From assembly GCA_934394595.1 (NCBI GenBank), contig CAKRRX010000061.1, forward strand, positions 1 to 13,802: DNA of 13,802 nt, given 5' to 3'. The notes beneath the pieces were generated by a model, which was given only the letters and a program-made list of their open reading frames with translations, was not told the origin of the DNA and did not search any database. The DNA comes from an uncultured Blautia sp. (lineage in GTDB: Bacteria; Bacillota; Clostridia; Lachnospirales; Lachnospiraceae). A program made the position numbers and the translations under genes. This document shows positions 820 to 13,802 of the stretch, in pieces. The number at the start of each line of letters is the position of its first letter. The stretch's first letter is position 1.

Positions 820-1086
820 TTATTTATCGCTATAATGACCTTTACATTGCAGTACTGTAATCGTCTCATCTGAGACTTCATACACAAGACGGTCTTTCAA
901 ATTAATTCTTCTACTCCATTTTCCACATAAATCGCCGCGAAGACCTTCTGGTTCTCCTTTTCCGGTGAAAGGAGTCCTCTGTATTTCTTTTAACAATTCA
1001 TTGATCTTCTTTAGTGTTTTTTTGTCTTGAATCTGCCAATATAGGTATTCTTCCCACGCAGATTCTGAAAATGAAATTTTACTCAC
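820..1086 (-). CDS. yoeB: Txe/YoeB-family mRNA interferase toxin
   Basis: The product is an 88-residue protein of usual YoeB length. YoeB toxins cleave mRNA in the ribosomal A site and stop translation. The family pattern is clear: SWEEYLYW-like opening (here SAWEEYLYW), then KKINELLKEIQRTPF, GKGEPEGL, WSRRI, DRLVYEV and a C-terminal GHY. By alignment from memory to E. coli YoeB, the catalytic Glu, Arg, His and Tyr correspond to E47, R66, H84 and Y85, so the toxin should be active. The start codon is GTG at 1084-1086, overlapping the antitoxin stop by 8 nt, with a GGAGG about 9 nt upstream inside the antitoxin gene. This implies one operon with coupled translation, antitoxin first. The protein family is well supported; its cognate antitoxin is not the usual YefM type (see findings). 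Confidence 0.92.
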   Translation of the reverse strand: MSKISFSESAWEEYLYWQIQDKKTLKKINELLKEIQRTPFTGKGEPEGLRGDLCGKWSRRINLKDRLVYEVSDETITVLQCKGHYSDK

Positions 1087-1351
1087 CCGCCATTGCCTCC
1101 AACTCTTCCATTGTTTTTACTACAACTTTTCCCTGTTCCGCTTGCTTTATTGATTTATAAAGCTGTGACATATTTTTTTCGGAATAAAATGGATCAACTG
1201 GGGCTTCAATTTCAAATGGTATTTTACGCTCCCGTAGTGCTTTCTTCGTATAAATCATATAAAATGTAGAAATATTCATCCCCATTGCTTCACACATTTC
1301 ATCTAATTCCCTTTTGGTTTCATCGTCCATGCGTAAACTAATTGTTGTCAT
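1079..1351 (-). CDS. RelB/DinJ-family antitoxin
   Basis: The product is a 90-residue antitoxin. Residues 1-48 (TTISLRMDDETKRELDEMC, then STFYMIYTKKALRERKIPFEI) match the ribbon-helix-helix DNA-binding fold of RelB/DinJ antitoxins, including the closing IPFEI. The C-terminal tail (about 59-88: NMSQLYKSIKQAEQGKVV and so on) is the kind of amphipathic segment that wraps and inhibits the toxin. The gene starts with ATG at 1349-1351, preceded by AGAGGTG at good distance. It lies directly upstream of the YoeB-type toxin and overlaps it. It should repress its own promoter, alone and with the toxin, as is usual for these modules. Confidence 0.88.
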   Translation of the reverse strand: MTTISLRMDDETKRELDEMCEAMGMNISTFYMIYTKKALRERKIPFEIEAPVDPFYSEKNMSQLYKSIKQAEQGKVVVKTMEELEAMAGE

Positions 1352-1488: not shown

Positions 1489-1583
1489 CTTGCTATTTAA
1501 GTACCTGAATGATAAAATCTAAATACAGCAAATATGTTGTATCCCTTTGTATGGAAACAATTCCGGAAAGGAGTCTGAAGCGA

Positions 1584-3173
1584 ATGGGAATGTTTGTAAA
1601 TCCTGACAATTCTGCATTTCAGGCAGCATTGAATGCAAGAATCTATGTGGACAAAAGCGGCCTGCTCAATTATACTAACAGCGTCCTTGCATCAACAGAT
1701 GCATTTATATGCAACAGTCGTCCGCGCAGATTTGGGAAATCTATTACTGCCAATATGCTTACCGCTTACTATAGTAAAGGCTGTGATTCAAAAGAAATGT
1801 TTTCAAAGCTTGAGATCAGTAAAGCGGCAGATTTTGAGAAACATCTGAACAAATATGATGTAATTCACTGGGATATCCAGTGGTGTATGGAACCTGCCGG
1901 AAAACCGGAGCATATGGTTTCGTATCTTTCTCAAAAGACAATCCAGGAGCTTAAGGAATTCTATCCTGATGTTGTTGATGAAAAAAGCACTTCACTGCCA
2001 GAAACCCTGGCAAAAATTAATGCACACACTGGAAATAGATTTATTGTAATTGTAGATGAATGGGACGTTCTGATTCGTGATGAAGCTGCAAATCAAAGGG
2101 TACAGGATGAATACATCAATTTTTTGAGAGGATTGTTTAAAGGGACGGAGCCTACCAAGTATATCCAGCTTGCTTATCTGACAGGTATCCTTCCGATCAA
2201 ACGGGAAAAAACACAGTCCGCTCTGAATAATTTTGATGAATTTACGATGGTCAGTCCCTCTACTCTGGCACAGTATATCGGCTTTACAGAAGATGAAGTA
2301 CAAAAGCTTTCCCTGGAATACCATCAGGACTTCGATAAGGTAAAACGGTGGTATGATGGCTATTTACTGAAAGATTATCAGGTCTACAACCCAAGAGCCG
2401 TTATCAGTGTGATGCAAAAAGGAGAGTTTAAAAGCTACTGGTCTGAAACGGCTTCCTATGAGGCCATTGTACCTCTCATTAATATGAATTACGATGGTCT
2501 GAAAACTGCGATTATCGAAATGCTTTCCGGTGCAATGGTTAAGGTCAACACCGCAACTTTTAAAAATGATACCGTAAATATCCATAGCAAGGATGACGTG
2601 TTAACCTATATGATTCACCTGGGATATCTTGGATATGACCAGACAAAGAAGATGGCCTTTGTACCAAATGAAGAAATCCGGCAGGAACTGACAATTGCCG
2701 CTGAAAGCAGACCGTGGAATGAGATGATTCAATTTCAGCAAGAATCTGAAAATTTGCTCAATGCCACCCTGGACATGGACGAACTCACAGTTGCAAAACA
2801 GATTGAAAAGATACACAATGATTATGTTTCTGTCATTCAATACAACAACGAAAACTCTCTAAGCAGTGTACTGGCTCTTGCCTATTTAAGTTCAATGCAG
2901 TATTATTTTAAGCCGATTCGAGAGTTGCCTACAGGTCGTGGATTTGCAGATTTTGTATTTTTACCAAAGCCAGAATACCGAAGTGAATATCCGGCATTCA
3001 TAGTTGAATTGAAATGGAATCAAAAAGTGCAGACTGCAATGCAACAAATCAAAGAGAAAAAGTATCCATCTTCCATTGAAAAATATACAGGAAACATCCT
3101 GTTAGTAGCCATCAGTTATGATAAAGTAAGTAAAGAGCATCAATGCCTGATTGAGGCTTATGAAAAGGAATAG
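1584..3173 (+). CDS. AAA-ATPase-like protein with C-terminal PD-(D/E)XK nuclease-like domain
   Basis: The product is 529 residues from the ATG at 1584. The N-terminus (MGMFVNPDNSAFQ, then RIYVDKSGLL) and the P-loop RPRRFGKS (46-53) are the signature of the AAA-ATPase-like family (Pfam AAA-ATPase_like). A Walker B-like strand VIVDEWD follows at about 155-161. The C-terminal 100 residues resemble the PD-(D/E)XK domain usually fused to it (DUF1703/PDDEXK_9): GRGFADFVF with D456, then FIVELKW with E475 and K477, then a QIKEKKY motif. An in-frame ATG at 1509 would add 25 residues, but it has no ribosome site and sits only about 14 nt after the probable transcription start. GGAAAGGAG at 1565-1573 fits the ATG at 1584, and the family normally begins MG-x-x-x-NP. 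The family is very common in gut Clostridia and Bacteroidetes; its cellular role is not established. Confidence 0.85.
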   Translation: MGMFVNPDNSAFQAALNARIYVDKSGLLNYTNSVLASTDAFICNSRPRRFGKSITANMLTAYYSKGCDSKEMFSKLEISKAADFEKHLNKYDVIHWDIQWCMEPAGKPEHMVSYLSQKTIQELKEFYPDVVDEKSTSLPETLAKINAHTGNRFIVIVDEWDVLIRDEAANQRVQDEYINFLRGLFKGTEPTKYIQLAYLTGILPIKREKTQSALNNFDEFTMVSPSTLAQYIGFTEDEVQKLSLEYHQDFDKVKRWYDGYLLKDYQVYNPRAVISVMQKGEFKSYWSETASYEAIVPLINMNYDGLKTAIIEMLSGAMVKVNTATFKNDTVNIHSKDDVLTYMIHLGYLGYDQTKKMAFVPNEEIRQELTIAAESRPWNEMIQFQQESENLLNATLDMDELTVAKQIEKIHNDYVSVIQYNNENSLSSVLALAYLSSMQYYFKPIRELPTGRGFADFVFLPKPEYRSEYPAFIVELKWNQKVQTAMQQIKEKKYPSSIEKYTGNILLVAISYDKVSKEHQCLIEAYEKE

Positions 3174-3184
3174 AATATTAAGAA

Positions 3185-3231
3185 AGCCCCCGGTATGATT
3201 CTGTTTCATCATACTGAGGGCTCTTCTTTTT
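3185..3231. terminator. Shared (bidirectional) terminator between convergent genes
   Basis: A 15-bp stem (3185-3199 with 3208-3222, including G-U pairs) has an 8-nt loop and a downstream T-rich tract (3224-3231) on the plus strand. It lies between the stop of the ATPase/nuclease gene at 3173 and the stop of the kinase gene at 3230. The T-run favours the rightward transcript; the kinase stop codon overlaps the tail. Confidence 0.8.
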
Positions 3232-6200
3232 AGCCATCTACCCGATAGATTAATGTTGGAAATTCCGATCCCATGCCTTGTCCACTGTTTTCCAGCAGCA
3301 CATATTTACCATCCCAGCTCTCATCAAAATTAATGGAGTTAATATCATCAAAAACAATATTTCCATGCCAGTCAATAATTCTGTCTCCACTGATGCCAGA
3401 ATTTGAGTAGTGTCTGAAATGCCCTGTTGTACCAACTATATAAGGTCGTTCTGCCAGTCTACTTGTCACTTGTCCGTCTCCAGCAATCAGTGTATAAGGA
3501 CCCTCTCTGGTCTCAAAGTAATCATTCTCGGTATCATACTCCAAGTAATCATTCTCGATATCACTCTCATAGGTAACGGCTCCATCTTTTCTTATGTAAG
3601 AAATGGTTCCATCTGACTTTTTCATCTTAAAATACCCCAGACTAAAAGAATAATCACGCTCATATTCGGTGGGAACAATCACATTTCCATTATAATCAAA
3701 CAGTCCCATTTTATATTCACCAGATTCAAATTTCGTACCTTCTATAAGTCCCAGCTTCTCAAGCCAGATTCCCCGATTAATAAATGTGCGTGAAAATAAA
3801 CACTCTTGCACTGAGAAATTTCCTGCTCCTTCAATTTTTTCTTCTGCTTTTGTGTACTCTGTGATTCCGTCAAAAACATAAGGATTAAGTGGAGATGCCA
3901 CCTCCGTAAAAGAACTGTCATATGTTACAGTTTTATCATCGCTGAATTTAACATTCAGATAATCCTCTTCTGCAACAACATCGAGTTTTCCCTGGAAAAC
4001 TGCCGAAATCTTCTGATCGCTGCCAACATTATAAACCGTTGTCTCTAATGTATTCCCGTTCGCATCATCTTTGTATCCCACGATCCAGTTGGCATTCAGC
4101 ACCTCCAGGTAATCATATTCAAGAGGAACCACTTCGCTTCCATCCATAGCAAGTATTCCTTCTTGCCCCACAGTCGAACCATATTTTCTGGATAAAATCC
4201 AGCCATAGTCTGCACCGACTCCTACTGTATTCCCCCAGCTATTGTAATCAAAATCTGTAAGAATATTTCCCTCCAGATCCATGAGTGCATAACCGCCATC
4301 TTCGCCCTTTCTTACACAAAGTAAATCAGTTCCATATACAAATCCTTTGAGCCTAAGATCTTCATCCAATACAATCTCCCCGATTTTTGTCAGCTGTGCA
4401 TCTCCTTCATACACCTTATCATTGATGTTGGCTATGTAATTTTTTCCACTTACTTCCCAGCCATTTAATAACTCTATTTTAACCTGTAACCCGTAGTTTG
4501 CAGTCAGCTCCACATCCCCGTCTGGCATGGTAAAGGATACTGTCTGAGAGGCGGTATCTGTTAATTCCAGATTTCCCCCATTCACAGACCAATCTTTAAA
4601 TTCCTGATTCTCCGGTGCGGCATCTGCGGTCAGGGTTACCGTATCACCAACATGGAAGCTTCCCCCACCGGTTCCATTCTCCACTGTGACATTGTAGGAA
4701 ACATCCTCATACTGGGCGCTTAAGCTCACGTCTCCGTCTGGCATGGTAAAGGATACTGTCTGAGAGGCGGTATCTGTTAATTCCAGATTTCCCCCATTCA
4801 CAGACCAGCCCTTAAATTCCTGATTCTCCGGTGCGGCATCTGCCGTCAGGGTTACCGTATCACCAACATGGAAGCTTCCCCCACCGGTTCCGTTTTCCAC
4901 TGTGACATTGTAGGAAATCTCTTCGTATTTTGCAGTCAGCTCCACATCTCCCTCTGGCATGGTAAACCACGCCACCTTTTGGCTGTCATCTGAAAGCTGT
5001 GCCTGTCCCTGGGTTACTTCCCAGCCTGCGAATTGATAACCATCCTCTGGTGCATCTGCTTCTGCCACAATTTTCTCATCAGGCTGATATTCTCCGGATC
5101 CACTGCCGCCATTGATCCTGACCTGATAGCTGTCAGTCTCGGAAAGGGCAGTCAGCCGTACTGCCTCTGATGGCATATCCAAAGTAAGCTCTGCTTCCTG
5201 AGACTCTTCCTCAGAAAGTGAAATTCCTTCTGCCTCCCACTTGGTAAAATGCTCTCCCTCCGGAATATCCGCATGGATTTCCACTGCTTCACCAGCCTTG
5301 TAGCTGCCGCTTCCTGTTCCGTTTTTCACAACCATCTCATAGGTTTTGGATGCCTGTACGCCGTGATAAATACCATATCCACATGCACCTGCAAGCAGAA
5401 CTGCACCTACTGCAATGGCAATTTTTTTACCTGAGCCTGCGCCAGGGGCAGACTGTCTGCTTTCTTTTTTCTCTGTAGAATCCGTGTTCACAGTAGTATT
5501 CACAGAATCTGTATTTAAGCTGCTTTTTGAAATTTCCACTTTTTGGTCTTCTGTTGGCTGCAACGTTTTTGGTGTCTTTTTGGTTTCCCCCTCAGTCTTT
5601 TTTACCTGCTGCAGGGCATTATACATTTCATGCATGGTTTTGAACCGATTCTCAGGCAAATATTCGCATGCTTTTAAAATCACCTTCTGGAATTCTCTGC
5701 TTCCATTTGCAGGAGCCGGAAGAGGGTTTCCCTGCATCCGCTTCATCAGGGCATTTTCCCGGTCATTGAAGGTGATTGCCTGGGTAATCGGCGGATAAAA
5801 CGGCAGACGGTTGTGATTCATCAGACGATACAACACAATTCCAAGAGAATAAATATCAATCTGGTCATTGTAAGTCTTTCCCTGATAAACCTCCGGTGCC
5901 ATATAGTTTTCTGTGCCCTTTTTGGACAGGCCGCCTGTGGTCTTTTCGATGGTTCTGGCAATTCCAAAATCCCCAAGCTTGAAACGCCCCATCTGGTCTA
6001 CAAAGATATTCTCCGGCTTTACATCACGGTGAACAAGCCCTCCGTCTGTGGCATATGCAAGGGCACTGCTGATCTCGCAGCCCAGACGTATCACGGTCCT
6101 TTCATCCACCGGATGTTCTGTCATCCACCTGGACAAAGGTGTAAGCAGCTCCATTTTGATCAGAATATCCCAGCCGATCTCCTCTTCATGCTCTCTCACC

Positions 6201-6505
6201 AGATGGTCTTCGTAAGCCACAATATTGGGATGATCCTTCAGGGAAATCATGATCCTGATCTCTCTTAAGATTTCATCTACAAATCCACGGAAATACTGGG
6301 TTACAGACACCTCGTCCATGCCCTCGCTCATGATTTCCTGTACATCTGACACGGACTTAGGGATGCGGATCACCTTCAGTGCAGCTTTCGCAGAAATAGA
6401 GTGATCATTCTTCTGGATTTCAAAAACCTTTCCTGTGGCACCTTCCCCCAGTTCCCGGGTAATGATCCAGTCATTAAACACGGAATCTCCTATTGTATAG
6501 TTCAT
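3230..6505 (-). CDS. Membrane Ser/Thr protein kinase with InlB-B-type repeats and WG-like repeat ectodomain
   Basis: The product is 1091 residues from the ATG at 6503-6505. Residues 1-300 form a Hanks-type kinase with all key residues: Gly-rich loop GEGATGKV (20-27), Lys44, HRDVKPEN (159-166, catalytic D161), DFG (179-181) and APE (203-205). A charged, Ser/Thr-rich linker (about 301-360) precedes one transmembrane helix (about 361-380), so the remaining roughly 700 residues should be outside the cell. Four InlB-B-like (Flg_new/bacterial repeat) units of about 70 residues follow (about 388-672), each with a pattern such as NGTGGGSFHVGDTV, a central GW or DW, and TMPDGDV. The tail carries WG-repeat-like units (about 738-754, 782-800, 932-950; for example GLFDYNGNVIVPTEYE). 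AAGGGG-type ribosome bases 8 nt upstream and the promoter at 6602-6631 support this start over the longer one at 6586. It resembles PknB-type sensors, with these repeats in place of PASTA domains; ligand and substrates are unknown. Confidence 0.88.
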   Translation of the reverse strand: MNYTIGDSVFNDWIITRELGEGATGKVFEIQKNDHSISAKAALKVIRIPKSVSDVQEIMSEGMDEVSVTQYFRGFVDEILREIRIMISLKDHPNIVAYEDHLVREHEEEIGWDILIKMELLTPLSRWMTEHPVDERTVIRLGCEISSALAYATDGGLVHRDVKPENIFVDQMGRFKLGDFGIARTIEKTTGGLSKKGTENYMAPEVYQGKTYNDQIDIYSLGIVLYRLMNHNRLPFYPPITQAITFNDRENALMKRMQGNPLPAPANGSREFQKVILKACEYLPENRFKTMHEMYNALQQVKKTEGETKKTPKTLQPTEDQKVEISKSSLNTDSVNTTVNTDSTEKKESRQSAPGAGSGKKIAIAVGAVLLAGACGYGIYHGVQASKTYEMVVKNGTGSGSYKAGEAVEIHADIPEGEHFTKWEAEGISLSEEESQEAELTLDMPSEAVRLTALSETDSYQVRINGGSGSGEYQPDEKIVAEADAPEDGYQFAGWEVTQGQAQLSDDSQKVAWFTMPEGDVELTAKYEEISYNVTVENGTGGGSFHVGDTVTLTADAAPENQEFKGWSVNGGNLELTDTASQTVSFTMPDGDVSLSAQYEDVSYNVTVENGTGGGSFHVGDTVTLTADAAPENQEFKDWSVNGGNLELTDTASQTVSFTMPDGDVELTANYGLQVKIELLNGWEVSGKNYIANINDKVYEGDAQLTKIGEIVLDEDLRLKGFVYGTDLLCVRKGEDGGYALMDLEGNILTDFDYNSWGNTVGVGADYGWILSRKYGSTVGQEGILAMDGSEVVPLEYDYLEVLNANWIVGYKDDANGNTLETTVYNVGSDQKISAVFQGKLDVVAEEDYLNVKFSDDKTVTYDSSFTEVASPLNPYVFDGITEYTKAEEKIEGAGNFSVQECLFSRTFINRGIWLEKLGLIEGTKFESGEYKMGLFDYNGNVIVPTEYERDYSFSLGYFKMKKSDGTISYIRKDGAVTYESDIENDYLEYDTENDYFETREGPYTLIAGDGQVTSRLAERPYIVGTTGHFRHYSNSGISGDRIIDWHGNIVFDDINSINFDESWDGKYVLLENSGQGMGSEFPTLIYRVDG
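3516..3567 (-). repeat. Short in-gene tandem duplication (27-bp period)
   Basis: The first 15 bases of each copy (from 3516 and from 3543) are identical and later positions mostly agree. In the protein this gives two neighbouring ENDY(L/F)E units at about residues 984-999 of the kinase ectodomain. Confidence 0.5.
4497..4928 (-). repeat. Tandem 216-bp coding repeat inside the kinase gene
   Basis: Two adjacent copies are offset by exactly 216 bp (72 codons): 4497-4712 and 4713-4928. Within the core (about 4519-4692 versus 4735-4908) I count only about six base differences, giving one amino acid change (KG versus KD). They encode InlB-B-like units 3 and 4 (about residues 530-600 and 602-672). 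The other two units (about 388-457 and 458-528) are clearly diverged. This points to a recent duplication or gene conversion. Confidence 0.9.
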
Positions 6506-6601
6506 ACGCCCTTCCCCTTTATCTGAAATTCTTTCTCCCTTTTTCAGGCTTCCCCATTGTCTGAAAAAGCAAAGAAATTCATACAATAATTACCTTTTTT
6601 C

Positions 6602-6631
6602 ATTATAACCTTTCTTGGAAATTCCTGTCAA
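6602..6631 (-). promoter_or_regulatory. Promoter of the kinase gene
   Basis: On the minus strand a consensus TTGACA (6626-6631) and a consensus TATAAT (6602-6607) are separated by 18 bp. Transcription would start near 6595, giving a leader of about 90 nt to the ATG at 6505. Confidence 0.75.
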
Positions 6632-6985: not shown

Positions 6986-8188
6986 ATGTTATGTCAGTTT
7001 TCGTTCCAAAACTTTAAATCCTACAAAGGCGAAACGACCTTGGATTTTCAGGCTGCCACACTTCCTGAATTTAGAGAAACATTGATTACCGAAGAAAAGG
7101 CAACTGATCTGTTGCCTGTAAGTGTTATATATGGGCCAAACGGAGGGGGAAAGACCAACCTTCTCCAGGCTCTTTCATGCGTAATTTCCACTATCGTAAA
7201 ACCTGTACATGAGCTTGAAAAAAACCGCCAGAAATTCATCCTTCAGCAGAAGGTTGATGCAGTACCATTCCTGTTTGACCAGACCTCATCCCACGCCCCC
7301 ACAGAATTCCGCATGTTCTTTAGAATTGCCCAAAATGAATACTGCTACTATATCGCCATTAAAAACGACGAGATTATTTCAGAGTCATTGTACCGTAAGT
7401 CAATCACTGGAAAGAAATCAGCGACCATATTTGAGCGTGAAGCCAATAGCATTACACTTGGCCCTTCTATAAATAAAAAAAGCATCAATACAAGTGTCAA
7501 TCCCAAAATGCCATACCTTTCTTTCCTTGCCATCAACTATAATATTTCAGTTATCAGTGAAGTTATGACCTGGTTCGAGAGCTGTATTATCCGCAGCTAT
7601 GCTAACCCCATAGTGGAACATCAGGTTATGCTGGCAAAAGACACTCCTTACAAAGAACAATTTATCCGTGCCCTGAATGACATGGATATTGATATTACAG
7701 ACTATCGCTATGATGAGGACAGCCACCAGCTCTTTATGAAGAGAAACTTAGATTCTGTAGAATACGAACTTCCATTCTCCGAAGAATCAGATGGAACGAG
7801 AAAGCTGATTGCTGCTCTTCCAGTTATCCTGCTTGCACTCCGTGAAGGTCGCATGGTAATTATTGATGAACTAGATGCAAAACTTCATCCAAAACTTCTT
7901 AAATACGTTATTTCATTGTTTAAAGATAAAGGTATCAATAAGCATGGGGCTCAGCTTCTGTTCACCTCTCATGATATGTACACATTAAAGAACACCGTGT
8001 TTCGACGTGATGAAATCTGGTTCGCTGCTGAGAATAAAGCACACGAAAGTGAAATCTATTCCCTTCACGAAATTCGCGGTGAGGATAATGACAGAATCAA
8101 AAATACGGCAGCTTACGACAAACAATACCTCGAAGGGCGCTATGGAGCAGATCCATACCTCTCCAATATGCTAGAAGGTGGATTTTAA
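6986..8188 (+). CDS. RloA-like AAA/ABC-type ATPase of a putative defence pair
   Basis: The product is 400 residues. It is an SMC/ABC-type ATPase of the AAA_21 (COG1106) group: opening FSFQNFKSYKGETTLDF, Walker A GPNGGGKTN (50-58), an ABC-signature-like ESDGTRK (267-273), Walker B VIIDELDAKLHP (291-302) and a switch histidine in FTSHD (326-330). The C-terminal motif GRYGADPYL (384-392) is typical of the RloA-like ATPases found beside RloB proteins. It overlaps the next gene by one base (TAATG), so the two products are very likely made together and form a complex. Such ATPase/TOPRIM pairs are linked to phage defence, where the ATPase is thought to sense infection and control the partner. Here the defence role is inference from family and pairing. 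Confidence 0.82.
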   Translation: MLCQFSFQNFKSYKGETTLDFQAATLPEFRETLITEEKATDLLPVSVIYGPNGGGKTNLLQALSCVISTIVKPVHELEKNRQKFILQQKVDAVPFLFDQTSSHAPTEFRMFFRIAQNEYCYYIAIKNDEIISESLYRKSITGKKSATIFEREANSITLGPSINKKSINTSVNPKMPYLSFLAINYNISVISEVMTWFESCIIRSYANPIVEHQVMLAKDTPYKEQFIRALNDMDIDITDYRYDEDSHQLFMKRNLDSVEYELPFSEESDGTRKLIAALPVILLALREGRMVIIDELDAKLHPKLLKYVISLFKDKGINKHGAQLLFTSHDMYTLKNTVFRRDEIWFAAENKAHESEIYSLHEIRGEDNDRIKNTAAYDKQYLEGRYGADPYLSNMLEGGF

Positions 8189-8859
8189 TGAGCCTAAAGC
8201 CACTCAAAAAAAGCGACTTAGATAAAAGCTGGATGAAATCCAGACGTGACAAACCAAAGAAAATCCAGCCGGAATATCACCTTATCATAACGGAAGGAAC
8301 AGACACCGAACCAGCCTATTTCGGAGCTATGAAAGAAATTATCAACAACACTTACTCCGATCATATTCAACTTTGCATCCATGGCACCGGTGATAATACC
8401 TTAAACCTTTTCCAAAAGGCCCAAAATATGGTAGCTGCCTCAGCCAATGGCTATAAGCATGTGTGGATTGTGTATGACACTGATGATTTCCCGGCAAACC
8501 ACATCAATGAAACTGCCAGGCTCGCTGTTTCGGAATCAACTGAAGAGACCACTTACCATGCCATCTGGTCAAACCAGTGCATAGAATTATGGTTCCTTCT
8601 GCATTTCAGTTTTATGCAGTCCAATCTTCACAGAGCATCCTACTGGCCAAAACTCACCGAGATACTTACCACCCTTGGTTATGGTGAATATGAAAAGAAC
8701 CGTACTGACATGTATCAGATTCTTTTACCATATATGGACGCTGCTATAGCAAATGCAAAAAAGCTTGACAAAATCAATGAAAGAAAGCTTCCCTCAGCTT
8801 CTGCCCCTGGAACAAAAGTATATGAACTTGTAGAAAAGTTAAAACCCTATCTGACATAA
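8188..8859 (+). CDS. RloB-family protein (TOPRIM-like putative effector)
   Basis: The product is 223 residues, typical for RloB. Visible motifs are ITEGTDTEPAYF (34-45), with E36 in the position of a TOPRIM glutamate; VYDTDDF (95-101), a DxD motif like the TOPRIM metal site; SNQCIELWFLLHF (128-140), the family's most conserved block; and a C-terminal APGTKVYELVEKL (206-218). The basic N-terminus (KSRRDKPKK) is also common. It starts at the ATG overlapping the upstream stop, with an AAGGTGG ribosome site 7-8 nt before it. RloB was named for restriction-linked genes in Campylobacter hsd loci. Related ATPase/RloB pairs act as abortive-infection modules (I believe lactococcal AbiL is of this kind). 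No restriction-modification genes are in this window. Nuclease activity is inferred from the TOPRIM-like residues only. Confidence 0.82.
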   Translation: MSLKPLKKSDLDKSWMKSRRDKPKKIQPEYHLIITEGTDTEPAYFGAMKEIINNTYSDHIQLCIHGTGDNTLNLFQKAQNMVAASANGYKHVWIVYDTDDFPANHINETARLAVSESTEETTYHAIWSNQCIELWFLLHFSFMQSNLHRASYWPKLTEILTTLGYGEYEKNRTDMYQILLPYMDAAIANAKKLDKINERKLPSASAPGTKVYELVEKLKPYLT

Positions 8860-9071: not shown

Positions 9072-9752
9072 CTACAGTGAGTCCGGATTAAACAGATCGC
9101 TGATGCTGTCGCCGTTTCTGTGAATTCCATCTACAGCAAATTCTGCCCACTCTCCGATATTGGTGGCATGATCGCCGATCCTCTCGTAGTATTTGGAAAT
9201 CATCAGAAGATCCAGAACCTCATCACTTGAATACCCCATTCTGTTCATATCCAGTGCTTTTCTGATCTTGTCAAAAAGATTGTCCAGGATATCGTCACTG
9301 TCGATCACCTTTTTCGCCATATCACTTTTGCCTTCCACATAAGCAGTGACACTGTCATTTACCATATGCATAGCATGGTCTGCCATCTCCTGAAGGGGAA
9401 TGGCTGTCACTGGCACGTGAACGCTTCCTGTATTCATGATCTCAGCAATGTCTGTGGCCTGGTCACCGATTCGTTCCATATCTGTCACCATCTTCAGTGC
9501 TGCGGAAATCTTACGAAGATCAGTACCCACCGGCTGCTGTTTCAGAAGAAGCTGCATACAAAGAGCTTCAATATTATGCTCTTTATCATCAATTTCTTTC
9601 TCAATTTTGGCTATATCCTTTGTTGCCGCTTCCCGTACCTCCACACTAGCCAGGATCTGGCAGGTTTTCATAATTGCCTGACTGCACAGATTTCCCATTT
9701 CCAGAACCTCGTCTGAAAGTCTGGAAAGCTTTGCGCTATACACATCTCTCAT
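9072..9752 (-). CDS. phoU: Phosphate signalling/transport regulator PhoU
   Basis: The product is 226 residues, normal for PhoU. PhoU is a cytoplasmic dimer that connects PstSCAB transport activity to the phosphate sensor kinase and dampens uptake. Two symmetric three-helix halves are visible, each with the metal-binding signature: ERIGDQATDI (93-102) and ERIGDHATNI (190-199). I chose the ATG at 9750-9752 (MRDVYSAKLS) because GGGAGG (9763-9768) lies 10 nt upstream and PhoU proteins begin this way. A longer frame reaching 9845 runs inside pstB and adds 31 unlike residues. The start is one base after the pstB stop (TGATATG), so the genes are co-translated. It is the last gene of the operon and is followed by the hairpin at 8970-9006. 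Confidence 0.95.
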   Translation of the reverse strand: MRDVYSAKLSRLSDEVLEMGNLCSQAIMKTCQILASVEVREAATKDIAKIEKEIDDKEHNIEALCMQLLLKQQPVGTDLRKISAALKMVTDMERIGDQATDIAEIMNTGSVHVPVTAIPLQEMADHAMHMVNDSVTAYVEGKSDMAKKVIDSDDILDNLFDKIRKALDMNRMGYSSDEVLDLLMISKYYERIGDHATNIGEWAEFAVDGIHRNGDSISDLFNPDSL

Positions 9753-9753
9753 A

Positions 9754-10503
9754 TCAACCGAACCTCCCTGTAATATACTCTTCTGTTTTCTTGTTCTGTG
9801 GTCTTGAAAACAGTTCTGTGGTATCGTTATATTCGATGATCTCACCCAGCAAAAAGAAGGCGGTTTTATCGGAAATACGGGCTGCCTGCTGCATATTGTG
9901 GGTTACGATCACAATAGTATAACGGTCTTTTAATTCCAGAGCCAGGTCCTCAATATGTGAGGTGGAAATAGGATCAAGTGCGGAAGTAGGCTCATCCATA
10001 AGAAGTACCTCCGGCTCTACTGCAAGAGCCCTTGCAATGCAAAGTCTCTGCTGCTGTCCACCGGACATTCCAAGGGCACTTTTTTTCAGGCGATCCTTTA
10101 CTTCCTCCCAGATTGAAGCATTTCGAAGGGCTTTTTCCACAATGTCATCCAGTCTCTCTTTGGAGTGGATTCCATGGGTACGGGGGCCATATGCAATGTT
10201 GTCATAAATACTCATAGGGAACGGATTCGGTTTCTGGAAAACCATTCCCACACGTTTTCTTAACAGGTTTACGTCAATATCTCCGTAAATATTCTCGCCA
10301 TCAAGGCGGATATCACCTGTGATCTTACATCCCTCAACCAGGTCATTCATGCGGTTTAAGGATTTCAGCAAAGTGGACTTTCCACAGCCGCTGGGACCGA
10401 TGAATGCGGTGATTTTCTTTTCCGGAATATCCAGATTTATATTCTTCAGAGCATGAAACTGACTATAATACAGATCCATGTTTTTTACATCTATTTTACC
10501 CAT
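9754..10503 (-). CDS. pstB: Phosphate ABC transporter ATP-binding protein PstB
   Basis: The product is 249 residues, standard for PstB, the cytoplasmic ATPase that drives phosphate import through PstCA. It has Walker [10 protein letters not shown] (36-44), a Q-loop in [11 protein letters not shown] (88-98; the KPNPFPMS string is PstB-specific), signature [15 protein letters not shown] (146-160), Walker [13 protein letters not shown] (167-178) and the H-loop in VTHNMQQ (200-206). The ribosome site AAAAGGAG ends only 3 nt before the ATG at 10501-10503, which is tight. Upstream is a 96-bp gap to pstA with a hairpin; downstream phoU follows immediately. Confidence 0.97.
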
Positions 10504-10599: not shown

Positions 10600-11457
10600 T
10601 TATTTTTCTCCGCCGACTTTGCTTAATCTCTTTGCGCACACTCCGGATATCCAGTTGAGAACCAGAACAAATACCAGAAGGATAACAGCCGTAGCATAGG
10701 CCTGATCCATGTAGAGTCCCTCACTGGAAAGTACATACATATGTACTGCAAGGGTACGGCCTGAACCCATCAGGCTGCCCGGTACCTTTGGAACTGATCC
10801 GGCAGTGTAAATAAGAGCTGCTGTTTCACCTACAATACGTCCCGTTGCAAGCACTACACCGGATAAAATTCCAGGAATGGCACTTGGAAGTACCACCTTG
10901 AATACTGTACGAAGCTTTCCTGCCCCAAGGCCAAAAGAGGCTTCCCGGTATGCATCCGGGACACCAAGAAGTGCTTCCTCTGTAGTACGGATGATCAGTG
11001 GCAAGATCATGATAACCAAAGTCATGGCACCTGACAGAAGAGAATATCCCCAATGGATCGCAGTACTGAAAAACAGAAGTCCAAAGAGACCAAATATAAT
11101 AGATGGAATTCCCTGAAGGGTTTCTGTTGTAATACGGATGATCTTTACCAGCTTGCTTCCTTTTTTTGCATACTCAACAAGGTAAATCGCTGCGAAAATA
11201 CCAAAGGGTACCGCAATTACCAATGTAAGCAGGGTTATGATCAAGGTATTGATAAGTGCAGGCATAAGAGAAGCATTGTCTGAATTATATTCAAGTGCAA
11301 ACAGCTCCGGACTTAAATTCCGCACACCTTTTATCAGGATAAAGCCTACAAGAAACGCCATAACTGCCACGGTAAGAATTGCGGAAAACCATACCAACAG
11401 TCTCAGGATGGCAGAACCTGGATGATCTTTCCAATAGGATATTTTACTTTTACTCAT
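10600..11457 (-). CDS. pstA: Phosphate ABC transporter permease PstA
   Basis: The product is 285 residues, usual for PstA, one half of the membrane channel for phosphate. About six hydrophobic helices can be seen (about 17-43, 64-93, 114-133, 141-156, 197-218, 254-273). The cytoplasmic EAA loop that contacts PstB is clear: AYREASFGLGAGKLRTVFKV (169-188), followed by VLPSAIPGI (189-197). GIPSIIFGLFGL and GETAALIYTAG are PstA-type motifs. The ATG at 11455-11457 lies inside the end of pstC (8-nt overlap) with AGGAG (11466-11470) 8 nt upstream, so translation is coupled to pstC. Confidence 0.96.
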   Translation of the reverse strand: MSKSKISYWKDHPGSAILRLLVWFSAILTVAVMAFLVGFILIKGVRNLSPELFALEYNSDNASLMPALINTLIITLLTLVIAVPFGIFAAIYLVEYAKKGSKLVKIIRITTETLQGIPSIIFGLFGLLFFSTAIHWGYSLLSGAMTLVIMILPLIIRTTEEALLGVPDAYREASFGLGAGKLRTVFKVVLPSAIPGILSGVVLATGRIVGETAALIYTAGSVPKVPGSLMGSGRTLAVHMYVLSSEGLYMDQAYATAVILLVFVLVLNWISGVCAKRLSKVGGEK

Positions 11458-12304
11458 CTTCTGCTCTCCTCTTCAGGGCTGATACACAAAGGTTGATGAT
11501 CAGGATAAATACGAATAATACCACACCTGTAGCAATCAGTGCTTCTCTGTGAAGATCTGTTGCATAGCCCATTTCAATAACAATATTTGCAGTCATGGTA
11601 CGGAGTCCTTTGAAAAGTCCCTGAGGCATCCAGGTCTGGTTGCCGGCTACCATGATCACGGCCATGGTTTCTCCGATTGCACGTCCGATTCCAAGAACCA
11701 CTCCAGCTAATACTCCTGATTTTGCAGCCGGAAAAACAGTGCCAAACACACTTCTTTCATGAGTTGCACCAAGTGCAAGTGCGCCTTCATAATAGCTAGT
11801 TGGAACGCTTTTCAAAGCCGGCTCTGCAACTCCTGTTACAGTTGGAAGGATCATAATTCCAAGAAGGACAGAAGCGGTAAGCATGGTGCTTCCGTCATGT
11901 CCTGTCAGCTGGCGGAGCAGCGGAACAAACACAGTCAGTCCGAAGAATCCATAGACAACAGAAGGGATTCCGGCCAGAAGATTTACCATTGCTTTTAATG
12001 GTCCATACAATCTTTTCGGACAATAGAAAGCCAGGAAAATTGCCAGAAGAAGAGCTGTGGGTACTCCCACTACAATTGCTCCGGCTGTTACATAGATACT
12101 TCCAAGGATAAATGGAAAAATTCCGTAAAGTCCATTGGATGGTTTCCATTTCATTCCAAACAGGAAGTCCGGCAGGCCAATCTTCGCCATTGCCGGGATT
12201 CCGTTTGCGAAAAGGAAAATACAGATTAATGCAACGGCCAGCACCGAAGTGCAGGCCGCTACAAGGAACACGATTTTCATTACTTTTTCATTCATTGATT
12301 TCAT
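11450..12304 (-). CDS. pstC: Phosphate ABC transporter permease PstC
   Basis: The product is 284 residues, normal for PstC, the partner of PstA in the phosphate channel. Hydrophobic helices lie at about 10-32, 61-93, 108-131, 142-160, 196-220 and 254-275. The EAA loop YYEGALALGATHERSVFGTV (171-190) with VFPAAKSGVLAG (190-201) faces PstB. GIPSVVYGFFGL (112-123) and GRAIGETMAV (207-216) are typical PstC strings. The ATG at 12302-12304 has an AAAGGA ribosome site about 9-10 nt upstream; a second ATG three codons later is possible. It follows pstS after a 36-bp gap with no terminator visible. Confidence 0.96.
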   Translation of the reverse strand: MKSMNEKVMKIVFLVAACTSVLAVALICIFLFANGIPAMAKIGLPDFLFGMKWKPSNGLYGIFPFILGSIYVTAGAIVVGVPTALLLAIFLAFYCPKRLYGPLKAMVNLLAGIPSVVYGFFGLTVFVPLLRQLTGHDGSTMLTASVLLGIMILPTVTGVAEPALKSVPTSYYEGALALGATHERSVFGTVFPAAKSGVLAGVVLGIGRAIGETMAVIMVAGNQTWMPQGLFKGLRTMTANIVIEMGYATDLHREALIATGVVLFVFILIINLCVSALKRRAEDE

Positions 12305-12340: not shown

Positions 12341-13201
12341 TTATTTTGCAAGGTCTTCCCATGTTGTGATATTGCCTGTGTAGATATCCTTAACCTGGTC
12401 ACTTGTAAGCTCTTCTACGCCACTGTCATTGTTTACGATAACTGCAATACCATCTTTTGCAATTACAGTTGCGGTAAGACCAGCCTCAGTCTCGCTGTCT
12501 TTTAAGTCACGGGATGCCATACCGATATCGCAAAGACCATCAATTGCAGATGTCATACCTGTTGTGGAATCGCTCTGCTGAACCTCAATGTCTACCTTGT
12601 CATTTACTGCTTTGTAACCTTCTGCAAGCTTCTCCATAACAGGTGTTACAGAAGAGGAACCAGCTACTACAACTTTTCCTTCTACATCAGCTGCTTCGTA
12701 TGCAGGTTTGTCGCCTACTGAGATGTATCCATTGTCTTCAATGATCTGCTGTCCGTCTGCACTCATAATGTAGGTAATGAAATCCTGTGCTGCCTCGCTT
12801 ACATCATCTTTTGTTGCAATGTTAAATGGACGAACTACTTTGTAGTCTCCGGACTCAATATTCTCTGCGGTAGCTTCTGCTCCGTCGATCTTTACTGCTG
12901 TTACGCTGTCATCCAGGGATCCAAGGGATACATATCCGATTGCGTTCTCATCCTGGGCTACTGTGCTTAACATAACGGATGTGCTGTTTGTGATCTTTGC
13001 TGCTTCTGTTGTATTGTCTACTTTATTTCCATCTGCGTCTTTTTCTTCAATTCCAAACAGTTCAATGAATGCACCTCTTGTACCGGATCCGTCTTCTCTG
13101 GAGCAGATTGTAATATCTCCGGAAGCTGCTGCCATTGCTGTTGTTCCCATTGTTGCTACTCCTAATAATGCCGCCATTGCTACTGCTAAACCTTTTTTCA
13201 T
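12341..13201 (-). CDS. pstS: Phosphate ABC transporter substrate-binding protein PstS, apparently circularly permuted
   Basis: The product is 286 residues and captures phosphate outside the membrane for PstCAB. Residues 1-25 are a signal peptide (MKKG, a hydrophobic core, then TTAMAA) with an Ala-x-Ala type cleavage site and no lipobox cysteine. The phosphate-pocket motifs are all present but in unusual order. SREDGSGTRGAF (34-45), normally in the second half of PstS, comes first and is followed by AIGYVSLGSL (87-96) and FITYIMSADGQQII (141-154). Then come VVVAGSSSVTP (177-187), QQSDSTTGM (208-216), MASRDLKDSE (228-237), AKDGIAVIV (248-256) and a terminal TGNITTWEDLA (275-285), which normally form the first half. 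The identity is secure from the motifs and from pstC next door. A ribosome site AAAAGGAG lies 11 nt before the ATG. Two Pho-box-like repeats lie upstream. Confidence 0.94.
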   Translation of the reverse strand: MKKGLAVAMAALLGVATMGTTAMAAASGDITICSREDGSGTRGAFIELFGIEEKDADGNKVDNTTEAAKITNSTSVMLSTVAQDENAIGYVSLGSLDDSVTAVKIDGAEATAENIESGDYKVVRPFNIATKDDVSEAAQDFITYIMSADGQQIIEDNGYISVGDKPAYEAADVEGKVVVAGSSSVTPVMEKLAEGYKAVNDKVDIEVQQSDSTTGMTSAIDGLCDIGMASRDLKDSETEAGLTATVIAKDGIAVIVNNDSGVEELTSDQVKDIYTGNITTWEDLAK

Positions 13202-13473: not shown

Positions 13474-13802
13474 ATGACCGAAGAAAAAAATGTACCCTGG
13501 CTGGACACTCCTGACCCCCAGCGTTTTATTAATAATGCAGCGAAGTTCAGCGATCTGATGATGATGTACCGATGCGCTATCCGCGAAGTACAGACCAAGC
13601 TGGAAGTTCTTGATGATGAATTTTCAGTAGAGTATAAGAGAAATCCAATCTCCTTTATTAAGACAAGAATTAAGAAACCAGAAAGTATTTACCGGAAGCT
13701 GCAGAAACTTGGATATGATTTTACCGCTGAAAATATCCAAAAACAGTTAAATGATGTGGCTGGAGTCCGGGTGGTCTGTGCGTTTATTGATGATATTTAT
13801 AC
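13474..13802 (+). CDS. GTP pyrophosphokinase (small alarmone synthetase, RelQ/YjbM-like), N-terminal part
   Basis: The gene runs off the window; 109 residues are visible. Small alarmone synthetases transfer pyrophosphate from ATP to GDP or GTP, making (p)ppGpp in the stringent response, and lack the hydrolase and regulatory domains of RelA/SpoT. The start of the RelA_SpoT synthetase domain is visible: FIKTRIKKPESIYRKL (61-76), with the basic residues and Ser that contact ATP, and DVAGVRVVCAFIDDIY (94-109), the conserved D-x-x-G-x-R block. The short N-terminus before the domain and the lack of any HD domain fit the RelQ type. AAAGGA (13462-13467) lies 6 nt before the ATG. It is divergent from pstS. 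RelP versus RelQ type cannot be decided without the C-terminus. Confidence 0.88.
   Translation, partial: MTEEKNVPWLDTPDPQRFINNAAKFSDLMMMYRCAIREVQTKLEVLDDEFSVEYKRNPISFIKTRIKKPESIYRKLQKLGYDFTAENIQKQLNDVAGVRVVCAFIDDIY

Follow-up and report, generated by a model that had tools for sequence, protein, structure and literature searches.

A circularly permuted PstS at the head of a pst operon in an uncultured Blautia

In canonical phosphate-binding proteins of the PstS family, the half that carries GSSSVTP comes first and runs through ITNW into the half that opens with REDGSGT. The question raised by the pstS gene of contig CAKRRX010000061.1 (assembly GCA_934394595.1, from an uncultured Blautia sp.) is whether these two halves have changed places, and whether the resulting protein is still the phosphate-binding protein of its importer. 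The stretch analyzed, referred to here as the window, is 13,802 nucleotides long, and a sequence-only reading of it had proposed a circular permutation. We found that the swapped halves are real and are common to a lineage present in many Firmicutes and some Actinomycetota.

Order of the halves in the window protein

The 286-residue open reading frame (ORF) at 12341..13201 (-) has the segment order that the sequence-only reading described, and its C-terminus reads ITTWEDLAK. When PDB chains were searched with phmmer, canonical 4q8r matched the window protein in two swapped blocks (residues 176-284 on 5-113 and 28-160 on 118-243) and canonical 4gd5 did likewise, while 4h1x matched in a single collinear block (24-283 on 5-263, sequence score 222.7 bits). 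The window protein matches 4H1X in fold as well. In the Pfam search, PBP_like_2 (PF12849) scored 116.2 bits against a gathering cut-off of 27, with residues 169-283 on profile positions 4-125 plus a second stretch, and other solute-binding families were matched as well. TIGR02136 also aligned in two swapped stretches, the best being 169-284 on 33-155, and gave 187.2 bits, which is below the curated cut-off of 206.6 that serves as the NCBIfam threshold for PstS. Because of the permutation, the standard profile under-scores such proteins.

Against a hidden Markov model (HMM) of 61 canonical rows, the unrotated chain matched in two blocks in swapped order (139.1 and 127.3 bits), and moving residues 167-286 in front, a check that had been suggested with the original proposal, turned these into one block of 272.5 bits at model positions 2-244. 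A rotation scan over 52 start points had a single peak at 162-172, with 272.5 bits from 167, 271.9 from 172 and lower scores on either side. By phmmer and by rotation, the window protein does not have the canonical order of halves. All 157 distinct permuted rows of the group that includes the window protein and 4H1X (type 1 below) were swapped against the canonical HMM, and 61/61 canonical rows were swapped against the permuted HMM; every row aligned collinearly to the HMM that had been built from its own set. Since both sets are swapped throughout against the opposite HMM, chance is excluded as the source of the order.

The predicted fold agrees with this, in that the second half of 4q8r aligns to residues 24-162 of the model and the first half of 9l8j to residues 171-286. 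Together, the swapped blocks, the rotation and the fold comparison bear out the circular permutation. Each half was counted once in the window protein, in keeping with the earlier claim that every pocket element is present once, with neither truncation nor duplication. The new termini had been placed between ITNW and REDGSGT, and phmmer, the HMM boundaries, the fold comparison and the rotation test all put them there.

We compared the pocket with that of E. coli PstS in a mixed alignment, using the residues that we take to line the E. coli site. E. coli R135, D137, S139, G140 and T141 fall on window R35, D37, S39, G40 and T41, and T10, F11 and S38 fall on S183, S184 and S212. Identity extends to six of the nine positions (R35, D37, S39, G40, T41 and S212), with serine replacing both T10 and F11.

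Lineage, distribution and two types of permuted PstS

When GTDB species genomes were scanned with A1, at least 552 relatives were obtained among at least 593 pattern stretches, and we retained the 80 best loci. Together with the window, these contained 85 ORFs with the second half first (C-N) and none in the canonical N-C order; one short ORF was part of the second half alone. Their sources include Lachnospiraceae, other Clostridia, Streptococcus and Coriobacteriia such as Paraeggerthella. The suggestion that these proteins form an overlooked clostridial subfamily was therefore right as to the subfamily, but the form is not restricted to clostridia and a crystal structure, 4H1X, already exists. 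In surveys where the centre genome is counted in each and group names are inferred from it, the permuted form was found in at least 41 of 196 genomes of the class of Blautia massiliensis (G007, locus L010), counted as one row spanning more than 200 of 285 positions and including a type-2 genome (G213) and a partial one (G085). It was found in 4/250 genomes of the class of a Streptococcus and in 5/246 genomes of the phylum of Paraeggerthella (both at E<=1e-45).

The pstC gene follows the permuted pstS in 84 of the 85 ORFs. All 150 PstC partners of type-1 proteins fell in one clade (FastTree support 0.915), the clade had support of 100 with IQ-TREE in a subset of 28, and the window PstC was inside it in both trees. 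Type-1 PstC thus form a clade of their own, which indicates that the swap goes with an importer lineage.

A second group of permuted proteins, type 2, consists of sequences like that of locus L161 and includes a triple fusion described below. It is quite possible, at somewhat less than even odds, that types 1 and 2 were circularly permuted independently, with the cut at one and the same site. The free PstS tree sets type 2 beside a canonical group (SH-like approximate likelihood ratio test 100) with most of type 1 elsewhere, the PstC trees separate the two types, their linkers differ, and a type-2 profile gives canonical 4q8r more (153 bits, in two stretches) than permuted 4h1x (128 bits, in one stretch). 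On the other hand, the branch of type 2 is long, both types are cut at the same place, and approximately unbiased (AU) tests do not reject a single permuted clade either for PstS (p 0.693, the constrained tree being better than the free one by 11.7 log-likelihood units) or for PstC (p 0.438). As the AU tests do not reject one clade, we do not uphold independent origins as an established fact.

Type 1 itself was scattered in some trees, with L160 and L161 outside the main permuted clade in the first FastTree and L160 and L255 outside in the free PstS tree. We treat type 1 as one group because holding it as a single clade was better by 26.4 log-likelihood units (p 0.877) and the PstC of L160 groups with type 1. 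A search with the type-2 query P0246 at E<=1e-30 found type 2 in 0/250 genomes of the class of G020, in a search without a positive control.

How the permutation may have arisen

The sequence-only reading proposed that a tandem duplication of pstS lost its outer halves. In-frame fusions do exist, the good ones being in a group that is already permuted, so that the proposal is plausible rather than demonstrated. The clearest is a type-2 locus (L281, at 3693..6614 (-) of G921:C82) in which one ORF of 990 residues between stops carries three C-N units in frame (CN-CN-CN), with a lipobox-like ALAACG in front and pstC, pstA, pstB and phoU behind. Its unit pairs are 91.0, 90.8 and 93.6% identical in DNA; units 1 and 2 differ at 14, 6 and 57 sites by codon position, with 45 synonymous and 23 other codon changes. 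As most of the differences fall at third codon positions, the copies appear to be under selection and are unlikely to be a repeat introduced by assembly. TIGR02136 spans both junctions (140.3 and 136.7 bits), so the same chain can be read as C-[N-C]-[N-C]-N with units in canonical order, and the whole triple chain scores 375.6 bits, above the cut-off. In this array, each inner half may pair either within its own unit (permuted register) or with a half of the neighboring unit (canonical register), and the triple PstS is possibly a multi-trap binding protein. Double in-frame fusions are P0247 (602 residues, on a 115-kb contig) and P0265 (593 residues, on a 7-kb contig). In its called form P0284 (Mycoplasmatota, on a 1.6-Mb contig) has the layout N-C-N, which may reflect a start placed too late.

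These proteins indicate that the tandem state needed by a duplication model exists; the arrays sit in an already permuted group, and they do not prove the route from canonical to permuted. The window protein is likely to have arisen when pstS was duplicated in tandem, in frame, and the outer halves were then lost, a step that is less certain than the rest of our interpretation. In its full form, the scheme, which we regard as rather doubtful when taken as a whole, is that in-frame tandem duplication gave rise to the permutation, perhaps twice at one site, that the (CN)n arrays are living stages of it, and that, once the anchor had shifted from the first lobe to the inter-lobe crossover, a separate line of Pst importers with a PstC of its own became established and displaced the canonical form.

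An unlikely alternative is that pstS split into half-genes that were re-fused in reverse, or that neighboring pstS genes recombined, with no fused tandem duplicate at any stage. Separate adjacent pstS copies are found (L282, L058 and L152), and apart from the triple fusion and a repeat in L250 the loci hold no ORF with multiple copies of a half, the tally being 221 CN, 67 NC and one C fragment for ORFs of at least 150 residues with refetched genes counted again. Arguing against it are the one triple and two double in-frame fusions, and the fact that no separate pair of half-genes was found among the matches, where the two with the second half only are a short ORF and a contig-end fragment.

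In L282 (G980:C110), two adjacent type-2 permuted pstS genes at 2488-3501 and 3616-4569 (-) precede pstC and pstA; the two share a frame, and their coding parts are separated by six stops, counting that of the upstream gene. Four of the 238 database proteins classified (P0001-P0238) have a C-N-C layout, in which a canonical second half comes after a permuted gene. We did not count these (P0102, P0121, P0126 and P0212) as intermediates; they may be assembly chimeras, which is not proved. Each is a single-member cluster on one contig, P0121 and P0126 are the same over 256 residues and then diverge in their tails (63% identical by position), the genome G010 (locus L014), where the start is almost the same, lacks a one-block canonical match, and permuted and canonical genes have exact stretches of up to 29 nucleotides in common. 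The NCNC ORF of L250 (G904:C28) was likewise not used; here 104 residues are repeated exactly within a canonical PstS, which may reflect either a recent duplication or a fault in the assembly.

Function, neighboring genes and known systems

We consider, with a probability of roughly 0.9, that the window protein is a genuine phosphate-binding protein in circularly permuted form and the sole PstS of its pst operon, where the genes after it on the same strand are pstC, pstA, pstB and phoU, as in a Pst importer. The chain would fold as the usual two-lobed trap, opened where ITNW normally runs into REDGSGT so that the new termini lie there, with the old termini joined by a linker of 9-11 residues; the C- and N-termini of PstS are close together. 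Because the pocket residues are largely kept, we expect that it would bind phosphate and hand it over to PstCA as other PstS do. The export signal and membrane anchor, which in canonical PstS are attached where the first lobe begins, would here attach at the inter-lobe crossover.

Permuted and canonical forms are rarely found together in one genome. Among 200 genomes from the family to which B. massiliensis belongs, 58 had the permuted form (E<=1e-60), 71 matched the canonical form (E<=1e-40, with 69 of these above the cut-off) and 75 had neither. Both occurred in 4, against 20.6 expected, and in one of the four the canonical copy (L251) is partial. B. massiliensis itself had a single A2 match at E<=1e-20, of the plain-signal kind, and among 24 genomes chosen for the permuted form three, two of them streptococci, also hold a one-block canonical match.

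Several points weigh against our interpretation. The Fisher p value for the family (1.1e-8) is a guide, as the test ignores shared descent. E. coli D56 is not kept and falls on S230, beside R231; SR is found at this position in several canonical clostridial rows as well. The window PstS lacks a lipobox, unlike most of its relatives, and its retention at the cell surface is unexplained. The lipobox pattern is present in 140/159 type-1, 21/22 type-2 and 58/64 canonical ORFs, where some of the misses are cut or partial ORFs; among the 19 type-1 misses, L014 has a cysteine outside the pattern, L035 is cut, L156 has no cysteine and the other 16, including the window, have a plain signal. The 15 plain-signal ORFs besides the window include several from Blautia. 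Finally, a stage between canonical and permuted was not confirmed in any genome examined.

It seems very improbable that the permuted protein acts as a sensor or has a different ligand, and is not the phosphate carrier of the transporter. Binding proteins can change ligand, and the function of the permuted protein is predicted from its sequence, but the gene sits ahead of pstC in 84/85 ORFs, the pocket is largely kept and a canonical PstS is rarely alongside. An assembly or annotation artefact is already refuted, since the same order occurs in named isolates and metagenome-assembled genomes, in all 157 distinct type-1 rows and in one crystal structure, even though individual proteins look chimeric (P0121 and P0126, which diverge after their common residues, and P0088, with a RelA/SpoT-like start joined to PstS).

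Table 1. Features of the pst operon in the window, with the parts of the permuted PstS.
Feature	Position	Strand	Basis
Permuted pstS gene, 286 residues	12341..13201	-	ORF; Pfam, TIGR02136 and phmmer matches; rotation test
Apparent signal peptidase I signal, residues 1-24 (MKK...TTAMA), without lipobox Cys	13130..13201	-	Sequence and pattern tally; putative cleavage site
Residues 28-164, second half of canonical PstS (C)	12710..13120	-	phmmer and HMM; 4q8r chain 114-245 on model 24-162
REDGSGT phosphate-pocket loop, R35-T41 (E. coli mature R135, D137, S139, G140, T141)	13079..13099	-	Mixed alignment; E. coli list presumed
Linker from old C-terminus to old N-terminus, residues 165-173	12683..12709	-	HMM boundaries; 9 residues, 11 by wider profiles
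Residues 174-284, first half of canonical PstS (N; GSSSVTP ... ITTWEDL)	12350..12682	-	phmmer and HMM; 9l8j chain 2-118 on model 171-286
pstC permease	11450..12304	-	TIGR02138, 281 bits (cut-off 196.45)
pstA permease	10600..11457	-	TIGR00974, 276.8 bits (cut-off 193.45)
pstB ATPase	9754..10503	-	PF00005; named from place in operon
phoU	9072..9845	-	PF01895, two stretches, 140.3 bits; listed ORF overlaps pstB, true start probably further in

Divergent from the pst operon is the start of a RelA/SpoT-domain protein (13474..13802 (+)), which places the phosphate-uptake genes and a possible alarmone gene on either side of a single intergenic region. Elsewhere in the window, two genes at 6986..8859 (+) match PADLOC AbiLi (275 bits) and AbiLii (99 bits) and Pfam AAA_21 and RloB, and are probably an AbiL-type phage defence pair. 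There is also a YoeB-like toxin and RelB-like antitoxin pair (820..1351 (-)), a protein kinase with four InlB B-repeat-like stretches (3230..6586 (-)) whose best PADLOC match is mad6 (196 bits, residues 34-385), and an AAA-ATPase_like and PDDEXK_9 protein (1509..3173 (+)) for which the PADLOC search found no match.

The permuted fold is known as a deposited structure, 4H1X, and the permuted order in PstS was not found described in the literature searched. In openly licensed PMC literature, a permuted PstS was not found in titles and abstract openings among the matches listed, and none of the papers searched contains the term 4H1X. Naturally permuted transporter binding proteins seem to be seldom described, the sole case found in our literature search being TpMglB-2 (Tp0684) of Treponema pallidum, which is also a naturally permuted binding protein of an ABC transporter. 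According to parts of PMC4990184, it is permuted in the N lobe and related to type I glucose-binding proteins; it is not a PstS. Its authors proposed a type Ic with an extra inter-lobe cross-over, and considered such proteins to be probably tethered. TpMglB-2 was not among the 50 VIA-align rows of our fold search, which excludes nothing.

Among the closest known systems is the S. pneumoniae phosphate-binding protein SP_2084, with which the window protein is collinear and which is 4H1X, named PstS 2 in the PDB. S. pneumoniae also has PstS 1 (4EXL), which matches in two blocks. A passage of PMC6722419 names SP_2084-8 the Pst1 operon, which clashes with the PDB name. Pst1 and Pst2 are called evolutionarily distinct in a passage of PMC4913102, where a text search found no words beginning with "permut". 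By kinship, the phenotype of the SP_2084-8 transporter supports a corresponding function for the permuted form. The streptococcal loci L063 and L071 carry a lipobox, unlike the window protein.

With the triple-fused relative, the duplication model of permutation can be tested directly, and because the two forms seldom share a genome, the cost or benefit of permutation can be studied in nature. Compared with E. coli PstS, most pocket positions of the window protein align and its role is probably the same, while the order of halves differs, D56 is not kept and overall similarity is low. Compared with canonical clostridial PstS (4Q8R and 4GD5; TIGR02136), the halves are homologous and the pocket motifs and operon are the same, and it is the order of the halves that differs, in a core nutrient transporter that carries the permuted binding protein in at least two phyla.
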